From Hassallia byssoidea VB512170 (GTDB lineage: Bacteria; Cyanobacteriota; Cyanobacteriia; Cyanobacteriales; Nostocaceae): a DNA stretch of 33,956 nt. Shown piece by piece: positions 2,017 through 14,896 of the stretch (position 1 is its first letter; each line of letters starts with the position of its first letter). The notes under the pieces were generated by a model. It had not been told where the DNA came from. It worked only from the letters and a program-made list of their open reading frames with translations, and searched no databases. Position numbers and translations under genes: made by a program. The stretch spans positions 1 to 33,956 of the forward strand of contig NZ_JTCM02000069.1 of NCBI RefSeq assembly GCF_000817785.2. Reading direction: 5' to 3'.

Positions 2017-2655
2017 ATGTTTTCGATTGATTCCCATTCAGTCCCTGTTGAGAAAATTCGCTACGATGACAGGGGTCTAGTACCTGCGATTGTCCAGGAT
2101 TATCTGGATGGTACTGTTTTGATGATGGCATGGATGAATCAAGAGTCGTTGCAGAAAACTTTAGAAACTGGGGAAACTTGGTTTTGGAGTCGATCGCGTG
2201 AAAATTTGTGGCACAAGGGAGCGACTTCGGGACATCTGCAAAAAATACGAAGTATCCGTTATGACTGTGATAGTGATGCTCTATTAATTGGGGTTGAGCA
2301 GTTAGGAGATATTGCCTGCCATACGGGAGAACGCAGTTGTTTTCATCAAGTAGATGGGACAATTACTGCACCGCCAGCGGATACGTTGTCGCAATTGTTT
2401 CAAGTGATATGCGATCGCCGCGATAATCCAAGTGAAGATTCTTATACTTGTAAGTTGTTTGCTGGCGGTGATAATAAGATTTTGAAAAAGATTGGCGAGG
2501 AATCTGCTGAGGTGGTGATGGCTTGTAAGGATGATGAACCAGATGCGATCGCTGGTGAAGTTGCAGATTTGCTATATCATACTTTGGTCGCTTTGGCTCA
2601 TCATCATGTTGATTTGAAGGCGGTTTATCGTCAGTTGCAGGAGAGAAGGAAGTAA
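2017..2655 (+). CDS. hisIE: Bifunctional phosphoribosyl-AMP cyclohydrolase / phosphoribosyl-ATP pyrophosphatase
   Basis: Catalyses the second and third steps of histidine biosynthesis. The N-terminal half is the HisI cyclohydrolase domain, with the metal-binding pattern CDSDALL and HTGERSCF at about residues 85-108. The C-terminal half is the HisE pyrophosphatase helical domain, with [17 protein letters not shown] and [16 protein letters not shown]. Length (212 residues) suits a cyanobacterial HisIE fusion. I chose the ATG at 2017 ([18 protein letters not shown]); an in-frame TTG at 1993 would add eight residues without family support. The last 148 bp are duplicated at 12773-12920. The gene is monocistronic, followed directly by repeat DNA. 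Confidence 0.95.
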
Positions 2656-2678
2656 AAGGTAAACGCGCAAGCGGTGAA

Positions 2679-2892: not shown

Positions 2893-3049
2893 AGGAAGAG
2901 GTGAAGAGGGGTGTTCATATCAAGTCCGTTGGATTAGTTATTATTTTGAACATCTGTGCAACAATCGTGAAACTCTCTTTCCCCCAGCTTTCGCTGCGGA
3001 CAACCATGATAAGTATTTGACCGGACATAATATGAGAACAAAGTCCATT

Positions 3050-3238
3050 ATGTTTGCGGTGACACAAAAAGAAGATAGTTCTAGAATCCGCACTACCCCT
3101 TTACCTCAGATTTTTGCCATTGCTCGTAATTTTGCTCTTAATTTATATCGAGACCAAATGTTTGATAACATGGCGCAAGCTCAACGATTCTGTTCTTTTG
3201 GACTAGACGCACTTAAGCAACTTTTTAGAATGAAATAG
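3050..3238 (+). pseudogene. C-terminal remnant of an ISAs1-like transposase
   Basis: About 62 codons read KEDSSRIRT, then ARNFALNLYRDQ and NMAQAQRFCSFGLDALKQLFRMK-type ending. In the ISAs1 family the end of the DDE transposase has this order: a DVTFKED-SRIR motif carrying the last acidic residue, then a LALNL helix. Everything upstream, including the first catalytic aspartates, is absent. An upstream in-frame TTG at 3017 extends the frame but has no family match. A dead fragment of an insertion sequence whose left boundary lies near 3045; no terminal inverted repeat was found. Confidence 0.6.
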
Positions 3239-3291: not shown

Positions 3292-3316
3292 ATACTCAAA
3301 TAGTAAGTGTGAGTAT
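3292..3316. promoter_or_regulatory. Inverted repeat upstream of the MATE gene
   Basis: ATACTCA (3292-3298) and TGAGTAT (3310-3316) are perfect 7-bp arms around an 11-bp spacer, 90 bp before the MATE start. Centre-to-centre spacing near 18 bp suits a dimeric repressor operator. This is a guess from symmetry alone. Confidence 0.25.
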
Positions 3317-3405
3317 TGAGTCACAACCCCAGGGTAAGAGTTGGTAATTTATATGAATTTATCAATGCGTCTATCTTCTGTGTAAACTATCTAAGTATAT
3401 ATTTA

Positions 3406-4845
3406 ATGTCTAGAATCGAAATAACTTCTCAAGAATTTAAGTCGGAATTTTTATCAGAAATTCGAGCCAGCTTAGAATTGGCAATTCCTTTAGTAATTGC
3501 ACAAATATTGGAAGCAGGTATTACCTTCTTAGATGCAGTAATGATGGGTTTACTCGGACCTCAAGCTTTGGCAGCAGGGGCTTTGGGTGCAATTACCTTT
3601 TCTACCATCTCTATAGTTTGTGGTTGTACTCTCTCAGCAGTAGGTGCGATCGCAGCGAATGCCTTCGGTGCAGGTAAAATAGACATAGTTAGAACTGCCA
3701 CTACTAAGGGATTGTGGCTAGCGGCTGTAATGTCCTTACCTGTAATGCTTCTAATTTGGAACTTTGATTCTATTTTACCGCTATTAGGTCAAGATGCGAG
3801 CAACGTGGTATTGGCTAAAAGCTATTTAAGGGCAATTGTTTGGGGTTTTCCGGCTGCTATAGGCTTTTGGGTTTTAAAAGAAGTTAGCGCTGCACTCAAT
3901 CGCCCCCAATTTATTACGGTAATTATGGCGGTTGGATTACTCTTAAATGGAATTGGCAACTATGTGCTGATGTTCGGTAAGTTTGGTTTCCCTGCCCTTG
4001 GTTTAGCCGGGATCGGCTGGGCAAGCGCCCTGGTTTTCTGGTTCAATTTTATCGCCACACTAGCATGGCTTGGGTTCCATCCCAAGTTTAGAGATTACAA
4101 GTTATTTGGCGCTCTGTTTCAATTTGATCGGACTATCCTTGTCGATATTTTGCGAGCTGGATCGTCTCTTGCCGTGCAATATGGAGCGGAAATTGGAGTT
4201 TTTAGTGCCATTGCTTTACTAATGGGATATTTCGGGACAACGATGTTAGCGGCTCATGAAGTTGCTGTGGAAACTGTACATTTTGTCCAGATGGTGCCAG
4301 TAGGCATTTCCTATGCCACTATGATGAGAGTAGGGCAGATGATGGGGCAAAACAATCCTACGGGTGCAAGCAGAGCAGTATCTGTCGGGATTGCCCTGAT
4401 TACTCCCTTCATAATCATCGTGGCATTAATTTTCTGGCTGTTTCCTGAGCGGATTGTAGCCTTGTTTTTGGACATTAACAATCCAAATAATGCCGAGAGC
4501 GTGAAAATGGCAATTTCTTTTCTCAGCGTAGCGGCAATAGTTCAAATGTTTTATAGCATTCAAGTCATAACTGCTGGTGCTTTACTGGGACTAAAAGATA
4601 CCCAGAAGCCAATGTTAATTAATATATGTTCTTACTGGGGTCTTGGCTTTGGTGGCGGCTACCTCGTAGGAGTAAAATTAGGTTGGGGAAGTATAGCTTT
4701 GTGGTGGAGTTTAGCACTGGGGTTAATAGTCGCAGCAGTAGCCTTAATGTTACGTTTTTATATTTTGATTTCTGGGATTACTTCCAGTGAAGATGAACAA
4801 TCAACCATCTCCCCCTCAACGTTAACTAGTAAACTAGATATTTGA
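3406..4845 (+). CDS. MATE-family multidrug/metabolite efflux transporter
   Basis: Inner-membrane antiporter of the NorM branch. The 479-residue product has about 12 hydrophobic segments in two pseudo-repeats. The start ELAIPLVIAQILEAG with FLDAVMMGLLG after it, and the second-half QYGAEIGVFS with AAHEVAV, are the standard MATE landmarks. I chose ATG at 3406 (MSRIEITSQEF). An upstream TTG at 3316 would add 30 residues ahead of the first conserved helix. The gene converges on the natural-product operon at 5244-12427 and is a good candidate exporter for its product, but that link is positional only. Its TGA stop (4843-4845) overlaps the tip of an IS200/IS605-type element, so the original C-terminus may have been different. 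Confidence 0.92.
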   Translation: MSRIEITSQEFKSEFLSEIRASLELAIPLVIAQILEAGITFLDAVMMGLLGPQALAAGALGAITFSTISIVCGCTLSAVGAIAANAFGAGKIDIVRTATTKGLWLAAVMSLPVMLLIWNFDSILPLLGQDASNVVLAKSYLRAIVWGFPAAIGFWVLKEVSAALNRPQFITVIMAVGLLLNGIGNYVLMFGKFGFPALGLAGIGWASALVFWFNFIATLAWLGFHPKFRDYKLFGALFQFDRTILVDILRAGSSLAVQYGAEIGVFSAIALLMGYFGTTMLAAHEVAVETVHFVQMVPVGISYATMMRVGQMMGQNNPTGASRAVSVGIALITPFIIIVALIFWLFPERIVALFLDINNPNNAESVKMAISFLSVAAIVQMFYSIQVITAGALLGLKDTQKPMLINICSYWGLGFGGGYLVGVKLGWGSIALWWSLALGLIVAAVALMLRFYILISGITSSEDEQSTISPSTLTSKLDI

Positions 4846-5278
4846 CACTCCCCAGCCATTAATGGCGGGGATTCTTGGATCATCCAGTCCACTTAATACT
4901 ATCTGTCCTTTCGGCAATACTTAAACCAAACATCCCTACCAAAGATAGCAAATGCTAAAGCTGTACTCAGTTAGTACCAGAGGTGGTTCTGTCCTCAAGC
5001 TTTTTACTTTTTTGCAGAAGCAAGTTTCGGCGTGCCCCGCCGTACTTTAAGAAACTCAAAACTTGGTTTCTCTGTACTTGGTGCTTAAGTTTTTTACCCT
5101 TAGAAGCCTTCCTCTAAGGAACCCATAACTTAGTTTTCAAGGTGCGTTAGTCTTTCGACTACTGGGTTTTTAAAGTGGTTGAATACCCTTTCCACTTCCA
5201 AGGGTTATAACATATTAACGGTGCTTAAAAGCACCAATCGTTTTCATCCCCAGCCATAAATGGACGGGGCTTTCAACT
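4843..5278 (-). mobile_element. IS200/IS605-derived non-autonomous element (PATE-like)
   Basis: The element is bounded by two subterminal palindromes, CCCC-A-GCCATTAATGGC-GGGG (4850-4870) and its near match at 5248-5269. On the minus strand it begins TTGAAAGCCCC and ends GGGGAGTGTCAA, the end pattern I associate with cyanobacterial IS605-group elements. The ends are not terminal inverted repeats in the DDE sense, and there is no obvious target duplication, as expected for a HUH-type single-strand transposon. Inside are only a decayed tnpB tail and strong stem-loops: GGTGCTT/AAGCACC (5220-5235), TAGTC/GACTA (5148-5161) and CCTTAGA/TCTAAGG (5098-5119). No transposase is encoded, so mobility would need TnpA in trans. 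Exact outer boundaries are uncertain by several bases. Confidence 0.65.
4936..5046 (-). pseudogene. Possible decayed tnpB C-terminus
   Basis: A 36-codon open stretch inside the element reads STAGHAET... to a TAG stop. GHTET/GHAET-like segments occur just after the zinc-ribbon in many cyanobacterial TnpB proteins. A stop codon lies directly upstream in the same frame. It has the right strand and place, between the structured 5' part and the right end. The match is short and from memory, so the call is tentative. Confidence 0.3.
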
Positions 5279-6068
5279 TGCTTTTTGGTAAGAGCTTACG
5301 CCACACCCGTTCCACCGCTAAACCAAGTACGATGCGTTGGGCGTGCAGTTTGGCTAAATCTATGTCTTCTTGGCTCACTTGGGAAGCATAGATTTTTAGG
5401 TTTGTGAGTTTTTCTTCCAAGCGATCGCCCAAGTCGATCATTTCTACTTCAAGAGAGCCGATACTTTGATGCACCTGGGTTTGAATATTTTGCAAAGTCT
5501 CACAACCTGCATAGGGGATGTCCTCATAAAAAATCAGTTCCGGTTTTGGATCGGCTTTCCAAGTCAATACGGAGTTTAAGACTAGTAGATGATCGATATG
5601 ATTGCCAATGGCTAGAGGAACCCACAAACGCGTCATTTCTGTTTGTTGATCTAAGAATGACTGGATCGTCTGGATAATCTGCACTGCGCTTGGATCTTTG
5701 CGGTAGTCTGTCACCGTGAATATCTCTTCTAAATCTAGGTATCCTCTTTGAGTGGTATCTTTCAAGCCTAATCCCATATGCCTCAAACCAAGTTTGTCAG
5801 CATAGGCAAGATCCTCAGCATAGCGAATTGCACTAGCCTGCTCCACAGAAACAGCAGGCTCGGCGTAGGGAACGTATGAGCTATGCTCAAATACGGTGAC
5901 TAAAGTTGCCTTGCTCATGTATCCCTGTAGTAATGCACCTCCAACAGAAAAGGCAATATCGTCTGCATGGGGGGAAAGGAGCAGATCCATTTTCTTAAAC
6001 TTTATAGTTTCTTGTTTGTAACTATAGGATGTTTCGAGATTAGGCAGCCGCAACACTGGGGCAACCAT
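5244..6068 (-). CDS. PIG-L (LmbE-like) family deacetylase
   Basis: Zinc-dependent hydrolase of the family that removes acetyl groups from N-acetylglucosamine conjugates (PIG-L, MshB, BshB) and related amides. The metal-binding signature is SPHADDIAFSVGG (32-44; H34, D37) with GNHIDH (155-160; H157, H160) as the second site. Length 274 is typical. It is the last gene of the operon and overlaps the radical SAM gene by 29 bp. An internal ATG at 5990 (MDLLLSPHADD) would remove the overlap and begins right at the fold, so it is an alternative start. The last ten or so residues (LKAPSIYGWG) are encoded by the left end of the IS200/IS605-like element, so the native C-terminus was replaced. Likely substrate: the glycosylated intermediate made by the operon's glycosyltransferase (inference). 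Confidence 0.85.
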   Translation of the reverse strand: MVAPVLRLPNLETSYSYKQETIKFKKMDLLLSPHADDIAFSVGGALLQGYMSKATLVTVFEHSSYVPYAEPAVSVEQASAIRYAEDLAYADKLGLRHMGLGLKDTTQRGYLDLEEIFTVTDYRKDPSAVQIIQTIQSFLDQQTEMTRLWVPLAIGNHIDHLLVLNSVLTWKADPKPELIFYEDIPYAGCETLQNIQTQVHQSIGSLEVEMIDLGDRLEEKLTNLKIYASQVSQEDIDLAKLHAQRIVLGLAVERVWRKLLPKSKLKAPSIYGWG

Positions 6069-7491
6069 GACAGTTATTTAAAACTACACCATGTTGCAAA
6101 GCAAACCTGAAGAAACGGTAGTCTTCTCTATTCCAGATTGACTCGAAAGTATCCAGATTGATATTACCAAATGCGGGAAAATCAGGTGTTTTAAGAAAAC
6201 AGCATGGCGTAACCATTCCCTGCCAATTTACCATAATTGATTGCATGAAGATGTCGCAGCGCTTGCCTTGATACCAAGAGATGATATCTGTCAGCGCTGT
6301 TTGCAAAGCAGGCAAGGTTGCTGAATCATCAACAATCTGCTTCATATCTGACAGAGATAAAATGTTTTGCTGTAATTCTGACGGATAAAAACGTGAGTAA
6401 GCGTCCATTGTATTGAGTGACTGGAATTGCACAGAGTCGATTCCAACAGAGTTAGCAAATTCCACAATGTCATCAACTTGAGAAAGCGTTTCTTTGAGCA
6501 AAGTTACCCACAATTCTAGTCGTAGCGGTTTGTTACGTTCTTCTCTCACCTGAGCAATGGTGCGAATCCCCTGGATAACTTTATCGTATTTGCTACCAAT
6601 CCGGATTTTCTCGAATTGCTCGGGAACAAAAGACTCCATTGAAATGCCAAGAGAATCTAATCCTGTGGATAACAACTTGCGGCATCTATCTTCAGTAAGT
6701 AACGAGGCGTTGGTTGTGATATGAGTCCACAATCCGCGATCGCTAGCAATCTGCAACATCTCGTAAAGGTGGCTGTTGAGCAATGGTTCCCCCTCGCCAG
6801 TGAGTTCAAGTGCTTTAACAAAGGGGAGGCGTTCGAGAATTGCTACGAAATCTTCAAATGTAAGATCGCCTTGAACAAGATAACGTCCATAACAAAATTC
6901 ACATTTAAAGTTACATCTTGTCGTTGGTTCAAACTTCAATCTCATAACAGAGGGCAGTTCGTTGGTATGAAACGCCACGCCATCCGGCAATAGATGAGAG
7001 GGTAAAGAGTCAATAGTGGAACTGCTAGACAAAGCATTGAGCTTGGGGGAGTAGAACAATTGTCCATTGTGGGATTGCAGAGTCTGGCGGATGCGATCGC
7101 TAACCATCATCTCGACAATTCCAATGGAACTAGTTGTTGACTTATCCAAGTTAACCTGCTGTGGCAACAGCATCCAATCGTCTGAGCTAAGATGACGGCA
7201 GCGCTCTTGAGCAACAGTTAAATCATCTTTGGATAGATACAAGCACTGTTCGTCTAAACAGTAGGTAATTGGACTATCTAATAAAATTAACCTTTCTTTA
7301 GAAAAGACTTGCCCAACCAGTAATGTGATGGCTTTACCTGTACAGCTAGGACACGATTTAGTTTGGAAAATTTTGTTTTGATTGTACTCTGAGGTAAAAA
7401 AAGACAATTCCTGCACTAAATCTGTGGTGTTTACAATAATTCGACTGGGGGAAGTATCAGAAGCAGATATTGGACAAATAATGTTAAGCAT
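6040..7491 (-). CDS. Radical SAM protein with SPASM-like C-terminal domain
   Basis: The [4Fe-4S]-SAM motif is C193-x3-C197-x2-C200 (RCNFKCEFCYGR), followed by TGEGEP (231-236), the GGE-type SAM-binding strand. A C-terminal cysteine set (C412, C430, C431, C474, C477) with VNWQGMVTPCCFL and FGNINLDTFESIW is the SPASM/twitch layout for auxiliary clusters. About 170 residues precede the radical SAM core and hold CPSC (47-50), C78 and C83, a possible zinc-binding knuckle. SPASM enzymes mostly act on ribosomal peptides, but some act on small molecules, and no precursor peptide is visible nearby. A GAG-type ribosome site precedes the ATG, and the gene starts 15 bp after the decarboxylase stop. Family firm; reaction unknown. 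Confidence 0.88.
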   Translation of the reverse strand: MLNIICPISASDTSPSRIIVNTTDLVQELSFFTSEYNQNKIFQTKSCPSCTGKAITLLVGQVFSKERLILLDSPITYCLDEQCLYLSKDDLTVAQERCRHLSSDDWMLLPQQVNLDKSTTSSIGIVEMMVSDRIRQTLQSHNGQLFYSPKLNALSSSSTIDSLPSHLLPDGVAFHTNELPSVMRLKFEPTTRCNFKCEFCYGRYLVQGDLTFEDFVAILERLPFVKALELTGEGEPLLNSHLYEMLQIASDRGLWTHITTNASLLTEDRCRKLLSTGLDSLGISMESFVPEQFEKIRIGSKYDKVIQGIRTIAQVREERNKPLRLELWVTLLKETLSQVDDIVEFANSVGIDSVQFQSLNTMDAYSRFYPSELQQNILSLSDMKQIVDDSATLPALQTALTDIISWYQGKRCDIFMQSIMVNWQGMVTPCCFLKTPDFPAFGNINLDTFESIWNREDYRFFRFALQHGVVLNNCHGCPSVAAA

Positions 7492-7506
7492 ATATATCTT
7501 AGCTCT

Positions 7507-8934
7507 TTATTGAAACTGATTTTCCATTGCATCGGCTGTTTGACAAATTAATTGCCAAGCTTGCTGTACGTGAATTTTCTCGGTTGTGGCTTGCCCAATT
7601 GACATTCGTAAAGTTAGTTTTTGGTCAAGCTTAGTAGAAGTGAGATAGAGTTTTCCTGAAGAATTGAGACAATTGAGTATTGCCTGGTTAATTTCATCAC
7701 TGCCCCTGTGACGAAAGCACACCAAGTTAAACGGAGGATTTACAACTAACTCAAAGCTGGGATGAGAATTTACCCATTCGGTAAATTCTTGTGCTATGGC
7801 AATATGCTTGCGAATGTAATGTTGTAATCCTTCTATACCATAGTGCCGAATCACAAACCAGAGTTTTAAACTTCTAAATCTACGTCCTAAGGAAATTTGC
7901 CAATCTCGGTAGTCAATTACTTTACCCGATGCACTAGCTTGATTTTTCAGGTATTCCGGCATAATAGATAGTGCCTGAATTAGTTTTGCTCGATCTCGAA
8001 CATAAAAGCAAGTACAATCAAAATTAGTCATCATCCATTTATGAGGATTAAAGCAATAGCTATCTGCTAGCTCTAGTCCTTGATGAATCCAACGAAACTC
8101 AGGACATATAGCTGCTGTACCACTCATTGCTCCGTCAACATGCAACCAAATGTTGTGTTCTTGCGCGATCGCCCCTATCTCAGTTAATGGATCTACTGCA
8201 TTAGATGAGGTTGTTCCTACCGTAGCAGCAATATAAAAGGGTATTAGCCCCAATTTAATATCAGCTGTAATACGCTGCTTGAGTGCTTCCGAACGCATAG
8301 CATAATTCGTATCAACCTCTATAAAGCGCAAATTTTCACGGTTTACTCCCGCAATTTTTGCGGCTTTTTCAATTGAGGAGTGTGCCTGATTGGAAGTGTA
8401 TGCAACCAATTTATTCATATCTGCTTTTGCCTGTTCTCTGGCTGCCAAGAGAGCTACCAAAACAGCACTGCTAGCTGAATCTTGGATGACTCCTCCCCCA
8501 GCTGTAGAAGATTTAAACCCAGAAGGAAGCCCTAGCATATCAACTAACCAGTCTAGAACGTGGGTTTCCAACTCAGTACAGGCAGGAGAAGTTGCCCACA
8601 ACATTCCCTGCACTCCCATTCCTGCACTGATTAATTCTCCCAAAATTGACGGTGCGGAGATCCCTGTGGGAAAGAAAGCAAAGAAGTTAGGAGATTGCCA
8701 ATTAGTTAGTCCTGGTACGATAATTTCATCTATATCTTTTAAAATCTTCTCAAAAGACTCTCCTTGTTGAGGAGCAGTCTCTGGTAACTTGGCTCTAATG
8801 TCTCCTGGCTCTACTTGAGAAAGAACAGGTAATTGTTCAATTTTCTCCAAATAGTCCGCAATCCAATCAATAGTTTTATATCCCCAATAACGAAATTCTT
8901 TTGAGGACATATGGTAATCAGGGTTTTTTTCCAT
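7507..8934 (-). CDS. Aromatic-L-amino-acid decarboxylase-like PLP enzyme
   Basis: Group II PLP decarboxylase, cytosolic. Seen: the N-terminal YWGYKTIDWIADYLE dimer helices, NFFAFFPTG (83-91), the cofactor-stacking histidine H185 in NQAHSSIEKA, D267 in HVDGAMSG, and Schiff-base K299 in NPHKW. The mobile-loop tyrosine, Y328 in MPEYLKN, is kept. In plant and animal homologues this Tyr marks true decarboxylases, while Phe marks aldehyde synthases. The following DYRDWQISLGRRFRSLKLWFV is close to plant and animal AADC. Expected reaction: Trp, Tyr or Dopa to the amine and CO2. HVDGAMSG replaces the common HVDAAYAG, so the pocket may differ. It lies mid-operon, before the radical SAM gene, and probably sets the aromatic-amine core of the product. 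Confidence 0.93.
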   Translation of the reverse strand: MEKNPDYHMSSKEFRYWGYKTIDWIADYLEKIEQLPVLSQVEPGDIRAKLPETAPQQGESFEKILKDIDEIIVPGLTNWQSPNFFAFFPTGISAPSILGELISAGMGVQGMLWATSPACTELETHVLDWLVDMLGLPSGFKSSTAGGGVIQDSASSAVLVALLAAREQAKADMNKLVAYTSNQAHSSIEKAAKIAGVNRENLRFIEVDTNYAMRSEALKQRITADIKLGLIPFYIAATVGTTSSNAVDPLTEIGAIAQEHNIWLHVDGAMSGTAAICPEFRWIHQGLELADSYCFNPHKWMMTNFDCTCFYVRDRAKLIQALSIMPEYLKNQASASGKVIDYRDWQISLGRRFRSLKLWFVIRHYGIEGLQHYIRKHIAIAQEFTEWVNSHPSFELVVNPPFNLVCFRHRGSDEINQAILNCLNSSGKLYLTSTKLDQKLTLRMSIGQATTEKIHVQQAWQLICQTADAMENQFQ

Positions 8935-9010
8935 TTGTACTTAAATTGAGAACTTTCTCGACGGTTCTCTTGGTTTTAATATTTATCTTTTTAAAAGGAA
9001 CACCTAACTG

Positions 9011-9547
9011 CTAATCCCGATTTGGAGATATGAGTTGCAAGCGGTTTTGTTCAAATTTTTTCAATGTATTCAATGCTATACATTTGGAGTTTCGTAAGCT
9101 ACCTTCATCTCCAACAAATTTTTGGCAAATTGCTTTATGAGCAGCAAATAGCACCTTATAGGCTGACATAAATTCTGACTGCTGAGATTGTAGGGATGCT
9201 GGTAGTGTTTTGAAAACCAAAGACATTTTCTTTAAAAGACTCATAAGATAAGCATGATCCCAGAGCATAAGTCCGCTAAAATTATCAGATTTAACGTGAG
9301 GTGGAATCATCATTGGACGAATCTGTTCTTCATACTGCTGCTTAGTCATGCTGCCTGCTACCTCCATCGCTGCCGCTGATGCAATAATCAGTTCGGTTGC
9401 AGTTTTTAGTTCAATCACTGCATCATCTAAATTACCAGCTTCGATGTTCATTTCAAAACGAAACAAGCTAATTATAAGACACTGAATGTAGACAGTAAAT
9501 ACCCAATGTGATTTTTTCCATATTTCTAATGGCTCAAAATGATTCAT
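9011..9547 (-). CDS. Orphan helical protein, possible distant PrnB/heme-dependent oxygenase relative
   Basis: I do not firmly recognise this 178-residue product. It is mostly helical and soluble. Striking pieces are YEEQIRPMMIPPHV (about 72-85), FSGLMLWDHAYLM (90-102) and a late AHKAICQKFVGDEGSL (136-151). The order RP-xx-xP, a long helix with DH, then an A-(Y/H)-xA-x-x-x-(R/K)F-x-G segment recalls, from memory, the C-terminal half of PrnB, a member of the tryptophan-dioxygenase-like heme superfamily. HKAIC also fits an HxxxC pattern, as in SfmD-type heme hydroxylases. The protein is only about half the length of PrnB. Ribosome site GAGAAG lies upstream of its ATG, and it starts 17 bp after the 149-aa gene, so the two are probably co-translated and may act together. 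Confidence 0.7.
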   Translation of the reverse strand: MNHFEPLEIWKKSHWVFTVYIQCLIISLFRFEMNIEAGNLDDAVIELKTATELIIASAAAMEVAGSMTKQQYEEQIRPMMIPPHVKSDNFSGLMLWDHAYLMSLLKKMSLVFKTLPASLQSQQSEFMSAYKVLFAAHKAICQKFVGDEGSLRNSKCIALNTLKKFEQNRLQLISPNRD

Positions 9548-9564
9548 TGTATTTTTCGTTCTTC

Positions 9565-10014
9565 TCAGTTAAACATCCTCATTAATAACCTCACACAGCT
9601 TTTGAAACCCTGTTTTTGAGTTTCTAATTCTTGTGCTGTTATTGCCGACGAACTGTGTACAATCAATTCAATCCAAGTCTTATAGGCAATTAGGACACTC
9701 GAAACAAGACAAGCAGCACGCTCTTGAGTTTCCACATGTTCTATATTGAAAAAATTATCGAAATCTTCAATTTCCCAAGGTTCCAGTAAAGCGTTAGTGG
9801 AAATAAGTTCTTTATGTCTCACCACTTGCACTGGTTCAAGTATTTTGATTGCCTCGTTGAGTGTATTTAGAGCAGATTCATGAGATTTTTCCAATATAGC
9901 TTCAAGAAATAAATTGAGAGACTTGCATAGCTTATCCTTGTCAGAGTTATCGTTCTGCGAACAAATGAATAAGTGATCTGGTCTAAGTAAAAAAAGGGTT
10001 TTTTCTGGGATCAT
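9565..10014 (-). CDS. Orphan helical protein, 149 aa
   Basis: No family recognised. The product is predominantly helical, with no signal peptide and no long hydrophobic stretch. A segment SLNLFLEAILEKSHESALNT (31-50) has the same spacing as ISLFRFEMNIEAGNLDDAV in the adjacent 178-aa protein (F...xIE...A...L..A), so the two could be halves or paralogous parts of one fold. It sits 16 bp after the O-methyltransferase stop and 17 bp before the next gene, so it belongs to the operon. Real-gene status is supported by tight packing and by residue composition similar to its neighbours. Confidence 0.65.
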   Translation of the reverse strand: MIPEKTLFLLRPDHLFICSQNDNSDKDKLCKSLNLFLEAILEKSHESALNTLNEAIKILEPVQVVRHKELISTNALLEPWEIEDFDNFFNIEHVETQERAACLVSSVLIAYKTWIELIVHSSSAITAQELETQKQGFKSCVRLLMRMFN

Positions 10015-10030
10015 TATACAAGTGTTTACC

Positions 10031-11062
10031 TCATATAGCAGACAATTCCATCACACTGACGGGAGTTCCTATTTGTAGATGACGAGCTAATTGAAAACCA
10101 GCTTTTTCAAATAGTTCGCTAAATTCTGCTTCAGTTCTCGCTCCTCCATATCCGAAGCTTAACAACTCTAAATCCAACCACTTACCCCACTGATATTCGT
10201 TGGCTGATGTCAGCACTGTATCAATAACGAGTAATTTACCATTATCTGCTATGGCATCGCGGATATTTTTAATGATGGTAGTAACTTTATCATCATCCCA
10301 GTCAATCAAAATATAGGATAAAGTGTAAATATCACCACCTACAGGTATCGATTTGAACATATCTCCACTTACTGTTTCGCAGCGATCGCCTACACCTTCT
10401 TTAGCCAAGAATTTTTTTGCTTCAGAAAGGACGTGGGGTTGATCGAAGAGGATGCCCTTTAAGTGGGGGTTAGCTTGTAAAATTGCAGAAATGAGCGTTC
10501 CTTCACCACCAGCGATGTCTACAATCTTGGTGGCACTGGAAAAATCATAAGATTCGATGAATGGTGTGTGGAAGTTTCTGCAAACGTTAATCATAGCTTT
10601 ATTGAAAATATCTCCAGCCTCAGGATTTTTCTGGAAATATTCGTAATAACTATGATCTTGATAAGCGTGATAAATGCCTGGTTTACCATCCTTGATACTG
10701 CTGTACATTTCTCCCCAGGAACGCCAATGCCAGTCGTCACAATGCATGATTGTCTGGTAACGTAAAGAGTAAGGATTATCACTGCGGAGATATTCACTAA
10801 TTGGTGTCTGGGCAAATTTACGCGGTTCAACTTCGTTAAAAACACCGACACTAGAGAGTGTACGCAGCAATCGATAAAGGGAACGTGTGTGGCTTTCAGT
10901 CTTGTGTGCCAACTCATCCACACTTTTGGCTCCCTCAATTAGCAAGTCAGCAACACCCAATTTAGCTGCTACATTTAGCGCTTGGGCAATCCAGTATCCA
11001 CTTGCTATTTCGACAAAAGCCATCATTGGTGATTTAGTTGCCGGATTGAACAATTCACTCAT
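10031..11062 (-). CDS. SAM-dependent O-methyltransferase (Methyltransf_2 type)
   Basis: The 343-residue product has the family's N-terminal dimerisation winged helix (VAAKLGVADLLIEGAKSVDELA, and RSLYRLLRTLSSVGVF at 60-75) and the Rossmann SAM motif VDIAGGEGTL (181-190). LFDQPHV (205-211) and SGDMF (232-236) follow. Members methylate hydroxyls of aromatic compounds such as phenols, acetylserotonin and polyketides. The usual catalytic His of the HDWDD motif is replaced: here it reads ILIDWDDD, with I253 at that position. This suggests a different base, a substrate-assisted reaction or a non-methylating relative. Second gene of the operon, 93 bp after the glycosyltransferase. Confidence 0.88.
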   Translation of the reverse strand: MSELFNPATKSPMMAFVEIASGYWIAQALNVAAKLGVADLLIEGAKSVDELAHKTESHTRSLYRLLRTLSSVGVFNEVEPRKFAQTPISEYLRSDNPYSLRYQTIMHCDDWHWRSWGEMYSSIKDGKPGIYHAYQDHSYYEYFQKNPEAGDIFNKAMINVCRNFHTPFIESYDFSSATKIVDIAGGEGTLISAILQANPHLKGILFDQPHVLSEAKKFLAKEGVGDRCETVSGDMFKSIPVGGDIYTLSYILIDWDDDKVTTIIKNIRDAIADNGKLLVIDTVLTSANEYQWGKWLDLELLSFGYGGARTEAEFSELFEKAGFQLARHLQIGTPVSVMELSAI

Positions 11063-11155
11063 AAGTCGTATTTAATTTGACAACAACTTTGCATCATACT
11101 TGTTGAAGCTGACTAAAATCAACTGCAATTAAAAATTTACTGGCGCTATGTTGCT

Positions 11156-12427
11156 TTAAGCAAAGACTGGCTTTTTGGTAAATATCATCTGCTCAATAAT
11201 ATCGGCGGCTCGATTTATTCCTCCTGCTTGACGAATAGCTTGTTGTAATCTTGTTGCATTCTTTTTATAAGAATTCTCTGTCAAGACGCGCTTAATCGCA
11301 GTTCTCAGCTTGGGAACACTCAGTTGGGAAACTGGAACAAATTCACCAGATCCTGTCCAAGCTATACGTGTCGCTACTCCTGGTTGATCGTTGCAAATTG
11401 GAATTGCCACCATTGGGACGCCGTGGCTCAAACATTCCAAAGTAGTATTCATGCCTGCATGGGTAATGGTGAGAGCCGTTTTTTGCAGCAATTCTAATTG
11501 GGGTGCATATTCTACAACTAGGGGTGAACCAGATAGTTCTGGTAAGGGTTGTGAGCTAGTTGCCCCACCAAGAGAAATCACCAACTGGGCATCTAAACCG
11601 TCAACAGCCTCAGCAATTGTCTTAAAAATCTCTACTAAGTGTCCCATCACAGTCCCTAACGAAGCATAAATCAGGGGTTGTCCAGTTAATTTTTCATAGG
11701 GAAAGGAAACAGATTTTCTCCCAGATGAGTTATGGTAAGGACCAGTGAAGTGAAACCATTTAGGTAAAGTAGTTCTAGGGAATTCAAATTCAGCGGGCTG
11801 TTGGCTCAACTGGACGAGTGGCGAGAAGTAGTCGTCGTAGCTAGAGTAAAATGGTAAATTCCACTTTCTACGGTACTTAAATATTGCCTCCCAAATAGAT
11901 CTCTCAAGGAAATCATAGTAGATGTGAGCCACTCGGTTACGCATCGGTGCCCACCAGTTAGGGCTATAGCTCCAAAGGGTTCCATAGGGAGGAACACTTT
12001 TGTCTCGATTCAAAATTAAACCACTACATACAGTTGCGAAGGGAATGTTGAGGTATTCTGCAATAGTTCCTCCCTCTGGTGAAACTTGATCTACTAACAG
12101 CGCATCTACACCTGCTTGTTTCAGTGCTTGTGGAGTTTCCTCTAAAAACGTAATTGCCAACTTTCGCAGCCAACTGATACAGTACTGCAAGGCGGCAGAC
12201 CCAACTAATTTACCTTGTTCAGCTTCCAATTGCGTCATTGCGCCAGCAGGAAACTCAGATTCGCCAATCGCTTGGAAGTTCAATCCGGCTGCTAATGTAC
12301 TGCGTTGATTATCAAGTAACCCGAATAGAGTGACCTGATGACCTCGTATTTGTAGTTCTCGCCCCAAGGGTAGCATAGTATTAAGATGCCCAGTCATTGC
12401 TGGGCAAATTAGACCAATGTGCGCCAT
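11156..12427 (-). CDS. GT1-family (UGT/MGT-like) glycosyltransferase
   Basis: GT-B fold enzyme that transfers a sugar from an NDP donor to a small acceptor, often a phenol or terpenoid alcohol. The N-terminus MAHIGLICPAMTGHLNTMLPLG places H14 where GT1 enzymes have the catalytic base. D113 (LLVDQ) fits the partner acid. The donor-site signature is THAGMNTTLECLSHGVP (322-338), followed by DQPG (347-350). Length is 423 residues from ATG 12427; the frame stays open 28 codons further upstream, but the family begins at MAHIGL. It resembles the zeaxanthin glucosyltransferase/macrolide glycosyltransferase group. First gene of the operon, so its promoter should lie in 12428-12600. Confidence 0.88.
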   Translation of the reverse strand: MAHIGLICPAMTGHLNTMLPLGRELQIRGHQVTLFGLLDNQRSTLAAGLNFQAIGESEFPAGAMTQLEAEQGKLVGSAALQYCISWLRKLAITFLEETPQALKQAGVDALLVDQVSPEGGTIAEYLNIPFATVCSGLILNRDKSVPPYGTLWSYSPNWWAPMRNRVAHIYYDFLERSIWEAIFKYRRKWNLPFYSSYDDYFSPLVQLSQQPAEFEFPRTTLPKWFHFTGPYHNSSGRKSVSFPYEKLTGQPLIYASLGTVMGHLVEIFKTIAEAVDGLDAQLVISLGGATSSQPLPELSGSPLVVEYAPQLELLQKTALTITHAGMNTTLECLSHGVPMVAIPICNDQPGVATRIAWTGSGEFVPVSQLSVPKLRTAIKRVLTENSYKKNATRLQQAIRQAGGINRAADIIEQMIFTKKPVFA

Positions 12428-12772
12428 AAATTTTCTAGATATTTGGTAAATAAAACTTAAAAAATGTGTTCTGTATCTTGCTGTACTAAATTGCCTGATT
12501 ATTTTTAACATTATAAAAATATCACTAAATACACGTCACCGCAAAAAAGGGTCGGAAATAGAGGAAGATATTTTTGTTGGGTGGCATAAAAATAAGAGAT
12601 GCAAAAACCTAGCTCAAGTATCCAAGTAGAAATGACTAGTGAGCAACAAGATGTACTCAATAGTTACAAGCTTTTATTTCTGAGTGGAATACGAAAGCAC
12701 ACCCTTTTGGTTGGAGTGAAAAGTCAACCTTGAAAGTTATCGCAAAGTGCCAAATTCAAGATTTTAATCATA
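12428..12772. other. Intergenic stretch, probable operon promoter region
   Basis: No firm gene. An AT-rich segment directly upstream of the glycosyltransferase should hold the minus-strand operon promoter, but I could not pick unambiguous -10/-35 boxes. On the plus strand an ATG at 12599 opens a 44-codon frame (MQKPSSSIQVEMTSEQQDVL... to a stop at 12733). It has a plausible amino-acid composition but no recognised family, so I do not call it a gene. Confidence 0.4.
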
Positions 12773-12920
12773 TGAGGTGGTGATGGCGTGTAAGGATGAT
12801 GAACCAGATGCGATCGCTGGTGAGGTTGCAGATTTGCTATATCATACTTTGGTCGCTTTGGCTCATCATCATGTTGATTTGAAGGCGGTTTTTCGTCAGT
12901 TGCAGGAGAGAAGGAAGTGA
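12773..12920 (+). pseudogene. Duplicated 3' fragment of hisIE
   Basis: These 148 bp match 2508-2655 (the end of hisIE) with four substitutions and no indels. They encode VVMACKDD... to ...LQERRK and a stop in the same frame. The differences are two silent third-position changes (Ala, Glu), one Tyr-to-Phe, and TAA to TGA. Nothing upstream resembles hisI or the first part of hisE, and there is no in-frame start with a ribosome site. It is a dead fragment of a duplicated or transferred gene. Confidence 0.93.
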
Positions 12921-12952
12921 AACGAACCGCAGAGGCGCGGAGAACGCGGAGG
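12921..12952. repeat. ACGAACCGCAGAG-type intergenic repeat
   Basis: AACGAACCGCAGAGGCGCGG followed by AGAACGCGGAGG is the common cyanobacterial CGCAGAG repeat. It touches the hisE fragment on one side and precedes the porin stop on the other. An interrupted copy lies at 31282-31359 and a weak trace near 22299-22318. Confidence 0.6.
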
Positions 12953-12973
12953 AGGAGGGGGAGAGGGGAGATT

Positions 12974-14896
12974 TTAGAAGGTGAAGGTGGTGCGGAGTAC
13001 GCCTACGGTTGTTGTGTCGTTGCGGCTGTCGCTTTCGGGATTGAACAGGACAAAGGCACCAGGGGTAATGCTGATATTGTCAGTTAGGCGCAAGCGGTAG
13101 TATGCTTCTAAATGGTAGGGAACTGCTCTATTTGCACCAGCAGGTGTAACTTGAGCGTCTCCACTAGCGTCGGTACGGTAAAGCGGTTGACCAAAGATAA
13201 GACCGGCGTTGTTGCCTTTACTGAAAAGATCGTTGAAGTGAAGTCCTACCATCCAACTGGTGAAGGTGGTGGAAGCATCAACTCTACCGGAGGAATCTTC
13301 AACAAATAGCGCTGCACCATAGCCAGATAATGCGACTTTGGGAGAAAATCTCCAGGTGGCTGTACCACCAACGGAGTTGACTTTGACGGGTATTCCTAGG
13401 GGAACTCCAGCTAAAGAACCAATATCACTGCTAACTAATCCTGTACCTAAGATGTTTATTTCGTGATAACTATTGGCATAGTTCAGACCAATATCTATCG
13501 AACTGGTTGGTCTAAATGTTAATTGTGCGGCAACAACGCTACTACCGCCAAATACGCCGGCACCCAATGGTGTGTTAGAAACTCCTGGAAGTATATCGGG
13601 AGATGAACTGGGAAGGTTTGCGTTTACACTGCCATACAATGCTCTTAAATCGAGTTGCTTTGAAAGGCTGAAAATAAAGCCTGCGGCTGATGCTAAACCA
13701 GTACCTGATGTACCCCCAGAAACGCGCACTACAGGATTTAAGCCGGCAAAGCGAGAAATTGATTCTTGTCCTTCACCATAAAATGGAGTGATAGTAGGAA
13801 AAGCATCGGATACTTCCGCAGCAGTGCCGGCAAACAAAGTTAATTTATCGGCGACGGGAAAGATGTAAAGTAGTTTGTAAAGCTCAACACTGTTGGCGCT
13901 GACGGGTGATAAGGTTTTGACGTCTAGTCCAGGAAATTGAGGTTCAAAGCTTGTACGAGCGCTGCTAGCAGTGAGTAGGGGTGAAGCTAATCCCAAACTT
14001 TCTTGAATGCTACCACGACCATCTACACCGCCTAAGAAATTGTAAGATTGCAACCCAGTAATTAGTAAGTCTTTGCCTGTAAAACTGGTGTTGAGATTCA
14101 ACCGCACTCGATTTACGAGGACGATATTCGGATCGTTTCGATTAGGAGCGCCTCCTGTGGCACCAATAGCTGATATAATTGCTTCACCATTGAGTTTAGT
14201 AGTTGTAGAAAACTGATTCGCCTCCAGTACAGCCGTGCGAGCTTCTAATGCGTCTACTCGACCTCGCAATGTCGCTAATTCAGCGGAAAATTCCTCTTGC
14301 AGTCTTTGCAAGGTGACTAAATCTTCTTTTTTTACCAAATCGGCGGTTGCGGTGGCAATTAGTTCGTTAACTCGATCCAAACACGCATTTAAACCAGCGG
14401 CAAATTCATAACGAGTCATCGCACGATTGCCCCGATAAGTGCCATTTGGATACCCAGCAATACAACCGTAGCGCTCTACTAAAGATTGCAATGCACCAAA
14501 AGCCCAATCTGTAGGCTTCACATCAGACAGTTGCGATACAGATGTTACCTGTTCCTGTTCCTGTATTTCCGCTGCTGCTATTAAGCGTGATGAGTCTGAA
14601 GGAGAATTGGAATTTTTTAAGACTGTTTGCGGAAAAAAAGTAGAAGCTGCTACTGCTAAATCTGTACTTGACTGCTTTTGATTTAATACAGGTACTGATT
14701 CGATTTTATCATTAATGGAGATACTTGTTTCATCAAAGATATTATTGTTGGAAACTACTATGTTTTCAGAATAGTTTATAGCCTGGGTGTCAGATGCTGT
14801 TTCTTCAAAAGTCGGCATCGCTTGCACAGGTAAGATTCCAGCGATTAAGTATAGAAAACTTACTCCCCCAGCATAAGCTAGCAGATTTACTTTCAT
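12974..14896 (-). CDS. SLH-domain OprB-type outer-membrane porin
   Basis: Major cyanobacterial outer-membrane porin family (SomA/Slr1841-like; some members serve inorganic-ion or iron uptake). A signal peptide covers residues 1-26 (hydrophobic core LLAYAGGVSFLYLIAGIL, then VQA). An unusual ~90-residue Ser/Asn-rich linker follows. One SLH domain spans about 118-175 (DVKPTDWAFGALQSLVERYG, GYPNGTYRGNRAMTRYEFA), which anchors to pyruvylated peptidoglycan polymer. Next come a coiled coil (180-225, LQRLQEEFSAELATLRGRVDALE) and a beta-barrel to a terminal aromatic residue (TTFTF). Length 640 is usual to slightly long. It is monocistronic, with a long 5' region holding an inverted repeat at 15092-15120. 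Confidence 0.93.
   Translation of the reverse strand: MKVNLLAYAGGVSFLYLIAGILPVQAMPTFEETASDTQAINYSENIVVSNNNIFDETSISINDKIESVPVLNQKQSSTDLAVAASTFFPQTVLKNSNSPSDSSRLIAAAEIQEQEQVTSVSQLSDVKPTDWAFGALQSLVERYGCIAGYPNGTYRGNRAMTRYEFAAGLNACLDRVNELIATATADLVKKEDLVTLQRLQEEFSAELATLRGRVDALEARTAVLEANQFSTTTKLNGEAIISAIGATGGAPNRNDPNIVLVNRVRLNLNTSFTGKDLLITGLQSYNFLGGVDGRGSIQESLGLASPLLTASSARTSFEPQFPGLDVKTLSPVSANSVELYKLLYIFPVADKLTLFAGTAAEVSDAFPTITPFYGEGQESISRFAGLNPVVRVSGGTSGTGLASAAGFIFSLSKQLDLRALYGSVNANLPSSSPDILPGVSNTPLGAGVFGGSSVVAAQLTFRPTSSIDIGLNYANSYHEINILGTGLVSSDIGSLAGVPLGIPVKVNSVGGTATWRFSPKVALSGYGAALFVEDSSGRVDASTTFTSWMVGLHFNDLFSKGNNAGLIFGQPLYRTDASGDAQVTPAGANRAVPYHLEAYYRLRLTDNISITPGAFVLFNPESDSRNDTTTVGVLRTTFTF

Follow-up and report, generated by a model that had tools for sequence, protein, structure and literature searches.

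What small molecule does an operon make when two of its seven genes belong to no recognised family? We address this question for a locus of the cyanobacterium Hassallia byssoidea VB512170, on a 33,956-bp stretch of contig NZ_JTCM02000069.1 (hereafter the window), where an earlier sequence-only reading had described seven packed minus-strand genes at 5244-12427, for a GT1 glycosyltransferase, a methyltransferase, two orphan proteins, an aromatic decarboxylase, a radical S-adenosylmethionine (SAM)/SPASM enzyme, and a PIG-L deacetylase, with a convergent MATE exporter. Our listing of open reading frames (ORFs) places seven intact frames at these positions, with intergenic gaps of 15, 76, 17, 16, and 93 bp and one 29-bp overlap; Pfam agrees with the five named identities (PIG-L just under its cut-off), and the exporter gene is present as well, outside that interval. 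We find that the locus, an integrated cassette, probably encodes a complete pathway that starts from tyrosine and ends in an aminoglycosylated amine, and that the two orphans resemble two parts of a single haem-dependent tyrosine hydroxylase.

Two orphan proteins resemble halves of one hydroxylase

Orphan 1 (178 aa) and orphan 2 (149 aa) matched nothing in NCBIfam, and their matches in Pfam (E of 0.1 and 0.03, below the cut-offs) and PHROGs (0.06 and 0.08) did not rise above chance level. Their description as orphans thus holds as far as Pfam and NCBIfam assignment goes; homologues exist, however, among hydroxylases of the SfmD type. Searched against the PDB, orphan 1 matched SfmD, a 3-methyl-L-tyrosine peroxygenase (6vdp residues 180-326, E = 2.6e-12), and marginally the haem-dependent L-tyrosine hydroxylase 7kqr (0.6). 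A profile of 17 split C-terminal halves matched SfmD at 3.2e-20, and a translated search of plasmid records with orphan 1 returned 23 records, 14 of them Agrobacterium plasmids, with Gloeocapsa PCC 7428 and the renieramycin producer's RenD among the others. The alignment to 6vdp places the orphan 1 motif H98-x38-H137-x3-C141 on H274, H313, and C317 of SfmD, which we take, in role and numbering, to be the residues of the HxnHxxxC haem motif; the H-xn-H-x3-C pattern was found in all 38 family members compared, with n ranging from 38 to 41 (38 in orphan 1). When orphan 1 was modelled with AlphaFold from its sequence alone (predicted local distance difference test, pLDDT, 70.9), the top twelve Foldseek matches were to MarE, haem-dependent tyrosine hydroxylase, and tryptophan dioxygenase (TDO). 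Orphan 1 therefore looks like the C-terminal, haem-binding part of a histidine-ligated haem enzyme of the SfmD type, a tyrosine hydroxylase. We also considered the orphans as precursors or leader-binding proteins of a ribosomally synthesised and post-translationally modified peptide (RiPP), a role that we set aside in view of the homology to SfmD.

For orphan 2, encoded immediately upstream of orphan 1, the evidence is indirect. A profile built from RenD, an Azospirillum protein, and relatives that have the pair as a single gene (337-391 aa long in the ten measured) matches SfmD residues 24-361 at 1.9e-50. In a profile-profile comparison, 17 split N-terminal halves in turn matched the N-terminal part of these single-gene relatives (probability 99.7%, E of 3e-25). 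On this indirect evidence, orphan 2 would be the N-terminal half of the same SfmD-type hydroxylase.

An old split and a recurrent decarboxylase partner

Homologues of orphan 1 occur in 33 of 291 genomes of the order, that of H. byssoidea included. We compared 33 other loci in the order (numbered with L below), 18 of them split and 15 single-gene; Agrobacterium also has a split hydroxylase. A tree of 38 C-terminal halves, which carries a long-branch warning, has 21 split rows and only two label changes, against a mean of 12.8 for shuffled labels (0 of 500 shuffles as low), and places the window's half with that of L036, likewise a split pair (support 94/80, with the tool's star mark). Because the split recurs at 18 of the 33 other loci and in Agrobacterium, and is clustered in the tree, a frameshift introduced by sequencing is ruled out, and we take the split to be old.

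Variation in architecture goes further. Five single-gene hydroxylases (L052, L057, L059, L060, and L066) carry the last helix of the N-terminal half, with a pattern like GFxxYxxLLxRVF, C-terminal to the haem half, an order that by eye is permuted relative to L054, L061, and L063. On Agrobacterium plasmids (L032 and L033) the halves lie inside clusters of non-ribosomal peptide synthetase (NRPS) and polyketide synthase genes, where the label 'siderophore biosynthesis protein', given to one half in L032 and to both in L033, is likely misleading. The split pairs L053 and L055 adjoin a flavin adenine dinucleotide-dependent amine oxidase (by Pfam in L055, as a 76% homologue in L053), and L055 has a class II aldolase gene too.

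Within flanks of up to ~10 kb, shorter on some contigs, a group II decarboxylase dependent on pyridoxal phosphate (PLP) lies no more than 2.5 kb from the hydroxylase at 11 of the 15 single-gene loci, or at 12 with L065 (2.85 kb); in L068 the two are on opposite strands. These decarboxylases form three groups by similarity. The first is of the window's kind (L057, L059, L060, L066, and L068, 76-84% identical to the window protein); the second is nearest to the PanP/diaminobutyrate decarboxylase models (L054, L056, and L058) and the third to the tyrosine decarboxylase MfnA (L061, L062, L063, and L065), with scores to those models under the NCBIfam cut-offs. Hydroxylase and decarboxylase thus appear, from gene neighbourhoods, to be a recurrent cyanobacterial pair. 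The neighbourhood search that the sequence-only reading had proposed recovered this pair and no co-occurrence of the full set, and among the loci compared the window has the only split hydroxylase that adjoins a decarboxylase. Starting from the decarboxylase, matches at E<=1e-100 were found in 13 other genomes, five of them with an adjoining hydroxylase, and a class-wide search at 1e-180 returned two of 388 genomes (that of H. byssoidea and G169) and no new context.

The nearest solved relatives of the window decarboxylase are plant and animal enzymes of the aromatic decarboxylase family, including tryptophan decarboxylase 1. It has the motif NPHKWM, whose lysine we take to be the PLP lysine, and a loop tyrosine (PEYLKN) in place of the phenylalanine of the aligned plant enzyme, as befits a group II aromatic amino acid decarboxylase. 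Its pocket residue is glycine. In plant decarboxylases, serine or glycine at this position distinguishes enzymes for phenolic substrates from those for indolic ones, but animal DOPA decarboxylase also has glycine, so the residue leaves the choice of substrate undecided.

Predicted tailoring enzymes

Among solved structures, the PIG-L protein is nearest to Dbv21 (3dfi, 4.8e-09) and teicoplanin Orf2 (9.5e-05), reportedly N-acetylglucosaminyl pseudoaglycone deacetylases that remove the acetyl group from N-acetylglucosamine (GlcNAc) on a teicoplanin-type pseudoaglycone; GlcNAc on a glycopeptide pseudoaglycone has a phenolic linkage. The metal-site residues H34-x-D36-D37 and H157/H160 are kept in all three aligned sequences, and the PIG-L/LmbE metal site is described as HXDD plus a distal histidine (PMC4101496). 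Given these nearest relatives and the preserved metal site, we infer that the enzyme would deacetylate a GlcNAc-type glycoside. Its closest relatives in the order sample (68% identical in L098, 60% in L099) also lie near radical SAM genes, although the proteins these encode are only 22-25% identical to that of the window: a radical SAM/SPASM gene, a methyltransferase, a GT4 glycosyltransferase, and a MATE gene surround the homologue in L098, and a radical SAM homologue (24.7%) is near that in L099. L098 has AroB-like, DegT, GmhA/GmhB-like, LegB-like, and NTP-transferase genes as well, and may encode a pathway to an amino sugar of the cyclitol or heptose kind. A 2-deoxystreptamine aminoglycoside of the BtrN/BtrD type was considered for the window and rejected, as its operon is without the AroB-like, DegT, GmhA/GmhB-like, and NTP-transferase genes present in L098.

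YjiC and oleandomycin glycosyltransferases are among the nearest solved relatives of the GT1 protein, which passes the Pfam UDPGT cut-off and scores 192.1 bits against the macrolide-type model TIGR01426, below the NCBIfam cut-off of 260. Its frame is open from 12511, and by eye the GT1 N-terminus corresponds to the ATG at 12427. The methyltransferase has both its dimerisation and its SAM domain and is 51-59% identical to six proteins at two other hydroxylase-decarboxylase loci, three per locus, each of which also has a tyrosinase gene. Its nearest solved relative is 6c5b, with the O-methyltransferases MmcR, CalO6, and DnrK among the nearest named ones; identity to RenB is 25% over part of the protein only.

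The radical SAM enzyme has CxxxCxxC and, further on, C412, C430, C474, and C477, all invariant in the five sequences aligned. A Twitch domain holds one auxiliary cluster, for which BtrN is the precedent, and the auxiliary cysteines here look Twitch-like and fit one such cluster. The best PDB match is DesII (9.5e-08), and the N-terminus has an extra region of ~180 residues with no Pfam match. At E<=1e-40, 290 further genomes of the order gave two matches (37% over ~200 aa), and 387 further genomes of the class, a set partly shared with the order sample, gave none; none was found in four congeners at 1e-30, and a scan of GTDB genomes by sequence pattern, which detects close relatives only, gave a best match of 34% identity. 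On these searches we set aside a conserved full cluster elsewhere in the genomes covered. Near the 37% relative in L100 lie an AMP-binding enzyme, an ORF that by eye resembles an acyl carrier protein, a GT28-like gene, and an FkbM methyltransferase, and L101 has the same ORF layout. The gene combination as a whole, which the sequence-only reading could match to no known cluster, we find only here; its parts are modular, as the hydroxylase-decarboxylase pair and the PIG-L relatives near radical SAM genes show.

A cassette between direct repeats

The features of the locus are collected in Table 1. The two direct repeats, 97.3% identical over 150 bp, both correspond to the 3′ end of hisIE, and the site in all four congeners has one repeat copy and none of the cassette. 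Directly after this copy, G294 (54% complete) has the porin gene found at 12974 in the window; in G292 the porin gene is ~1.9 kb of other DNA further on, and G291 and G293 have later window sequence (from ~15.3 kb) next to the copy. With 150-bp repeats on either side and a cassette-free site in the congeners, the MATE gene and the seven-gene operon form a single unit, a cassette of ~10.3 kb. The operon had thus been recognised correctly, but the unit is larger and takes in the exporter. It was either gained in H. byssoidea or lost from its congeners.

Table 1 Features of the hisIE-flanked cassette, in window coordinates
Feature	Position	Strand	Evidence
hisIE 3′ end, left direct repeat	2508..2657	+	gene 1993-2655; PRA-CH and PRA-PH domains
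MATE-family exporter	3316..4845	+	Pfam MatE 6.3e-47; inside cassette, convergent to operon
PIG-L/LmbE-type deacetylase	5244..6068	-	PIG-L 7.3e-06, Dbv21 match, metal-site residues
Radical SAM enzyme, Twitch/SPASM C-terminus	6040..7491	-	Radical_SAM 3.7e-18, SPASM 2e-12
Aromatic L-amino acid decarboxylase (group II, PLP)	7507..8934	-	Pyridoxal_deC 4.5e-123
Orphan 1, putative haem-binding C-terminal half of SfmD-type hydroxylase	9011..9547	-	SfmD 6vdp, motif, fold
Orphan 2, candidate N-terminal half of SfmD-type hydroxylase (indirect evidence)	9565..10014	-	profile-profile match
Small-molecule methyltransferase	10031..11062	-	Methyltransf_2 2.8e-42, Dimerisation 5.9e-14
GT1 glycosyltransferase (MGT/YjiC/OleD-like)	11156..12427	-	UDPGT 1.2e-28
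Duplicated hisIE 3′ end, right direct repeat	12773..12922	+	repeat comparison; single copy at site in 4/4 congeners

The cassette looks mobile, and a domain scan of its ORFs of at least 80 aa recognised no integrase. A 68-aa ORF in its left part (3032-3238), with no Pfam match, resembles by eye the C-terminal remnant of a transposase. A 22-nt sequence occurs in two copies with a spacing of 398 (4849-4870 and 5247-5268), and the segment 4975-5196 between them recurs at 77-81% in two congeners. The PIG-L frame takes its last codons from the right end of this stretch and extends beyond the C-terminus of two relatives; 4849-5268 looks like an insertion sequence (IS)-type insertion at the 3′ end of the PIG-L gene. 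An Rfam scan gave a single sub-threshold match (5195-5240), and a promoter scan showed no excess over shuffled sequence (15 sites against 17.7), a result we did not use. One Gloeocapsa NRPS protein had no match anywhere in the window (1e-12), where the domain scan covered ORFs up to 16641.

Proposed pathway and alternatives

The sequence-only reading had proposed a decarboxylated Trp, Tyr, or Dopa product that is methylated, glycosylated with a GlcNAc-type sugar later deacetylated, and exported. An aromatic amine is still the best reading; since the orphans look like halves of an SfmD-type enzyme, however, tyrosine or DOPA is a more likely precursor than tryptophan, and a hydroxylation step is added. 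The later steps are likewise retained, the sugar part being supported by the Dbv21 and Orf2 relatives. In the pathway we propose, with no order implied for its middle steps, the two hydroxylase halves would assemble into one haem enzyme that converts L-tyrosine to L-DOPA, and the decarboxylase would give dopamine (or tyramine). The methyltransferase may methylate the ring or a phenol, the GT1 enzyme may place a GlcNAc-type sugar on a phenol, and the PIG-L enzyme would remove the acetyl group to leave a sugar of the glucosamine type; at a guess, the radical SAM enzyme would oxidise or otherwise remodel the sugar or the aglycone, and the MATE protein would export the product, likely an amine of the dopamine or tyramine type that carries a methyl group and an amino sugar. 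Only tentatively do we go further and suggest that a tyrosine hydroxylase of two subunits, with covalent haem and kept split across widely differing bacteria, supplies a dopamine-type aminoglycoside pathway, and that the amino sugar, once freed, is remodelled there by a Twitch radical SAM enzyme belonging to a new lineage; the products would be a class of bacterial catecholamine glycosides with no description in the literature searched.

Several findings weigh against the proposed pathway. The complete gene set is present in one genome only. At the split loci elsewhere, a decarboxylase lies within 2.5 kb at 0 of 18 (a distant one in L041 is 11 kb off), and 12 of the 18 have an NRPS match, that in L055 being only 31% identical. 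Eight of the 13 genomes with decarboxylase matches had no hydroxylase in the stretch fetched, two of these contigs being shorter than 7.5 kb. The orphan 1 model gave no Foldseek E-value <=0.001, and SfmD was not among its best 50 rows. For orphan 2, a PDB search with the profile of split N-terminal halves returned no chain of SfmD, and the single-sequence model was poor (pLDDT 53.6), with no informative fold match in Foldseek at this low confidence; because the direct search was negative and the model poor, the assignment rests on the indirect profile link and on gene order. The PIG-L score is 26.9 bits against a cut-off of 28.2 for PF02585. The catalytic histidine of Methyltransf_2 O-methyltransferases (HDW) is absent from the window protein, which has LIDWDDD, and from the same place in its six homologues.

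The missing histidine would fit another order of events. If the methyltransferase acted before the hydroxylase and C-methylated tyrosine, as SfmM2 is reported to do in saframycin biosynthesis (PMC13109631), the hydroxylase would take 3-methyltyrosine, the very substrate in the PDB name of SfmD, and the amine would be a glycoside of 3-hydroxy-5-methyl-tyramine. We judge this unlikely, as the named nearest solved relatives of the methyltransferase (the nearest, 6c5b, is unnamed) include three O-methyltransferases, its similarity to RenB is low and partial, and three homologues at each of two hydroxylase-decarboxylase loci would suit the O-methylation of several hydroxyls. A different concern is that the genes were joined by recombination into a decaying mosaic with no working joint pathway, which would fit their restriction to one species between 150-bp repeats, the differing contexts of their relatives, and the IS-like repeat that abuts the 3′ end of the PIG-L gene; seven intact, tightly spaced frames with one overlap, and the retention of all catalytic motifs checked, make it quite improbable.

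Two further readings start from single enzymes. Many SPASM proteins are peptide maturases, and weak matches to peptide-maturase models could point to a RiPP or peptide-cofactor pathway, in which a precursor peptide is the substrate of the radical SAM/SPASM enzyme and is tailored by the other gene products. However, none of the best 25 of 63 matched NCBIfam models reaches its cut-off, the auxiliary cysteines suggest one cluster, no operon gap exceeds 93 bp, and two of the flanking gaps (12428-12972 and 4846-5243) hold only ORFs of up to 56 aa, none precursor-like by eye; even though one of 49 aa (12511-12660) immediately precedes the GT gene and shares the operon's strand, we consider this reading very unlikely. 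Least probable of all is a tryptophan-derived pathway, with a Trp-type haem aromatic oxygenase and a decarboxylase that yields tryptamine. TDO and MarE belong to the same superfamily and are among the top fold matches, and tryptophan decarboxylase 1 is among the decarboxylase's solved relatives, but sequence and motif put orphan 1 with the tyrosine enzymes SfmD and RenD, and its relatives adjoin tyrosinase genes and MfnA-like decarboxylases (under the cut-off of that tyrosine decarboxylase model).

Significance and relation to known systems

Two proteins blank in Pfam and NCBIfam gain a likely identity as halves of a haem enzyme found in natural-product clusters of cyanobacteria and Agrobacterium. 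The recurrent pairing of hydroxylase and decarboxylase, with three decarboxylase groups beside one hydroxylase family, predicts catecholamine-type products in bacteria. The cassette, with eight genes, is small enough to express and would serve as a test bed for an amino-sugar catecholamine pathway and for its radical SAM enzyme, which lacks close relatives. The need for both halves of the haem oxygenase, and the reason why the split persists, are directly testable. Every kind of enzyme in the operon is already known, and the related LmbB2 family was stated in 2013 to reach cyanobacteria (PMC3851162). Neither an SfmD-type enzyme encoded by two genes nor this gene set was found in the openly licensed literature searched, which is weak evidence of novelty because coverage was limited to open-licence papers.

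Compared with SfmD and RenD of saframycin and renieramycin, the window has a homologous catalytic half, with H-x38-H-x3-C in the same position and the fold of the haem-dependent aromatic oxygenase superfamily in its model, but divides between two genes what is there one polypeptide of ~350 residues, in an operon with a decarboxylase and no NRPS. Clusters of the saframycin and glycopeptide type have an NRPS beside the hydroxylase or deacetylase, whereas the window has no match to the Gloeocapsa NRPS protein; this also separates its PIG-L protein from Dbv21 and teicoplanin Orf2, which are its nearest solved relatives at modest E-values. The loci L057, L059, L060, L066, and L068 share the window's kind of decarboxylase, and two of them its kind of methyltransferase, whereas their hydroxylases are single-gene and from other branches of the tree, and the 17-20 kb fetched around them have no GT, PIG-L, or radical SAM homologue. 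The window's radical SAM enzyme differs from the sugar-pathway enzymes BtrN and DesII in its N-terminal extra region and in having no close relative among the genomes searched, yet it shares with them the cysteines for one auxiliary cluster, and DesII is the structure it matches best.

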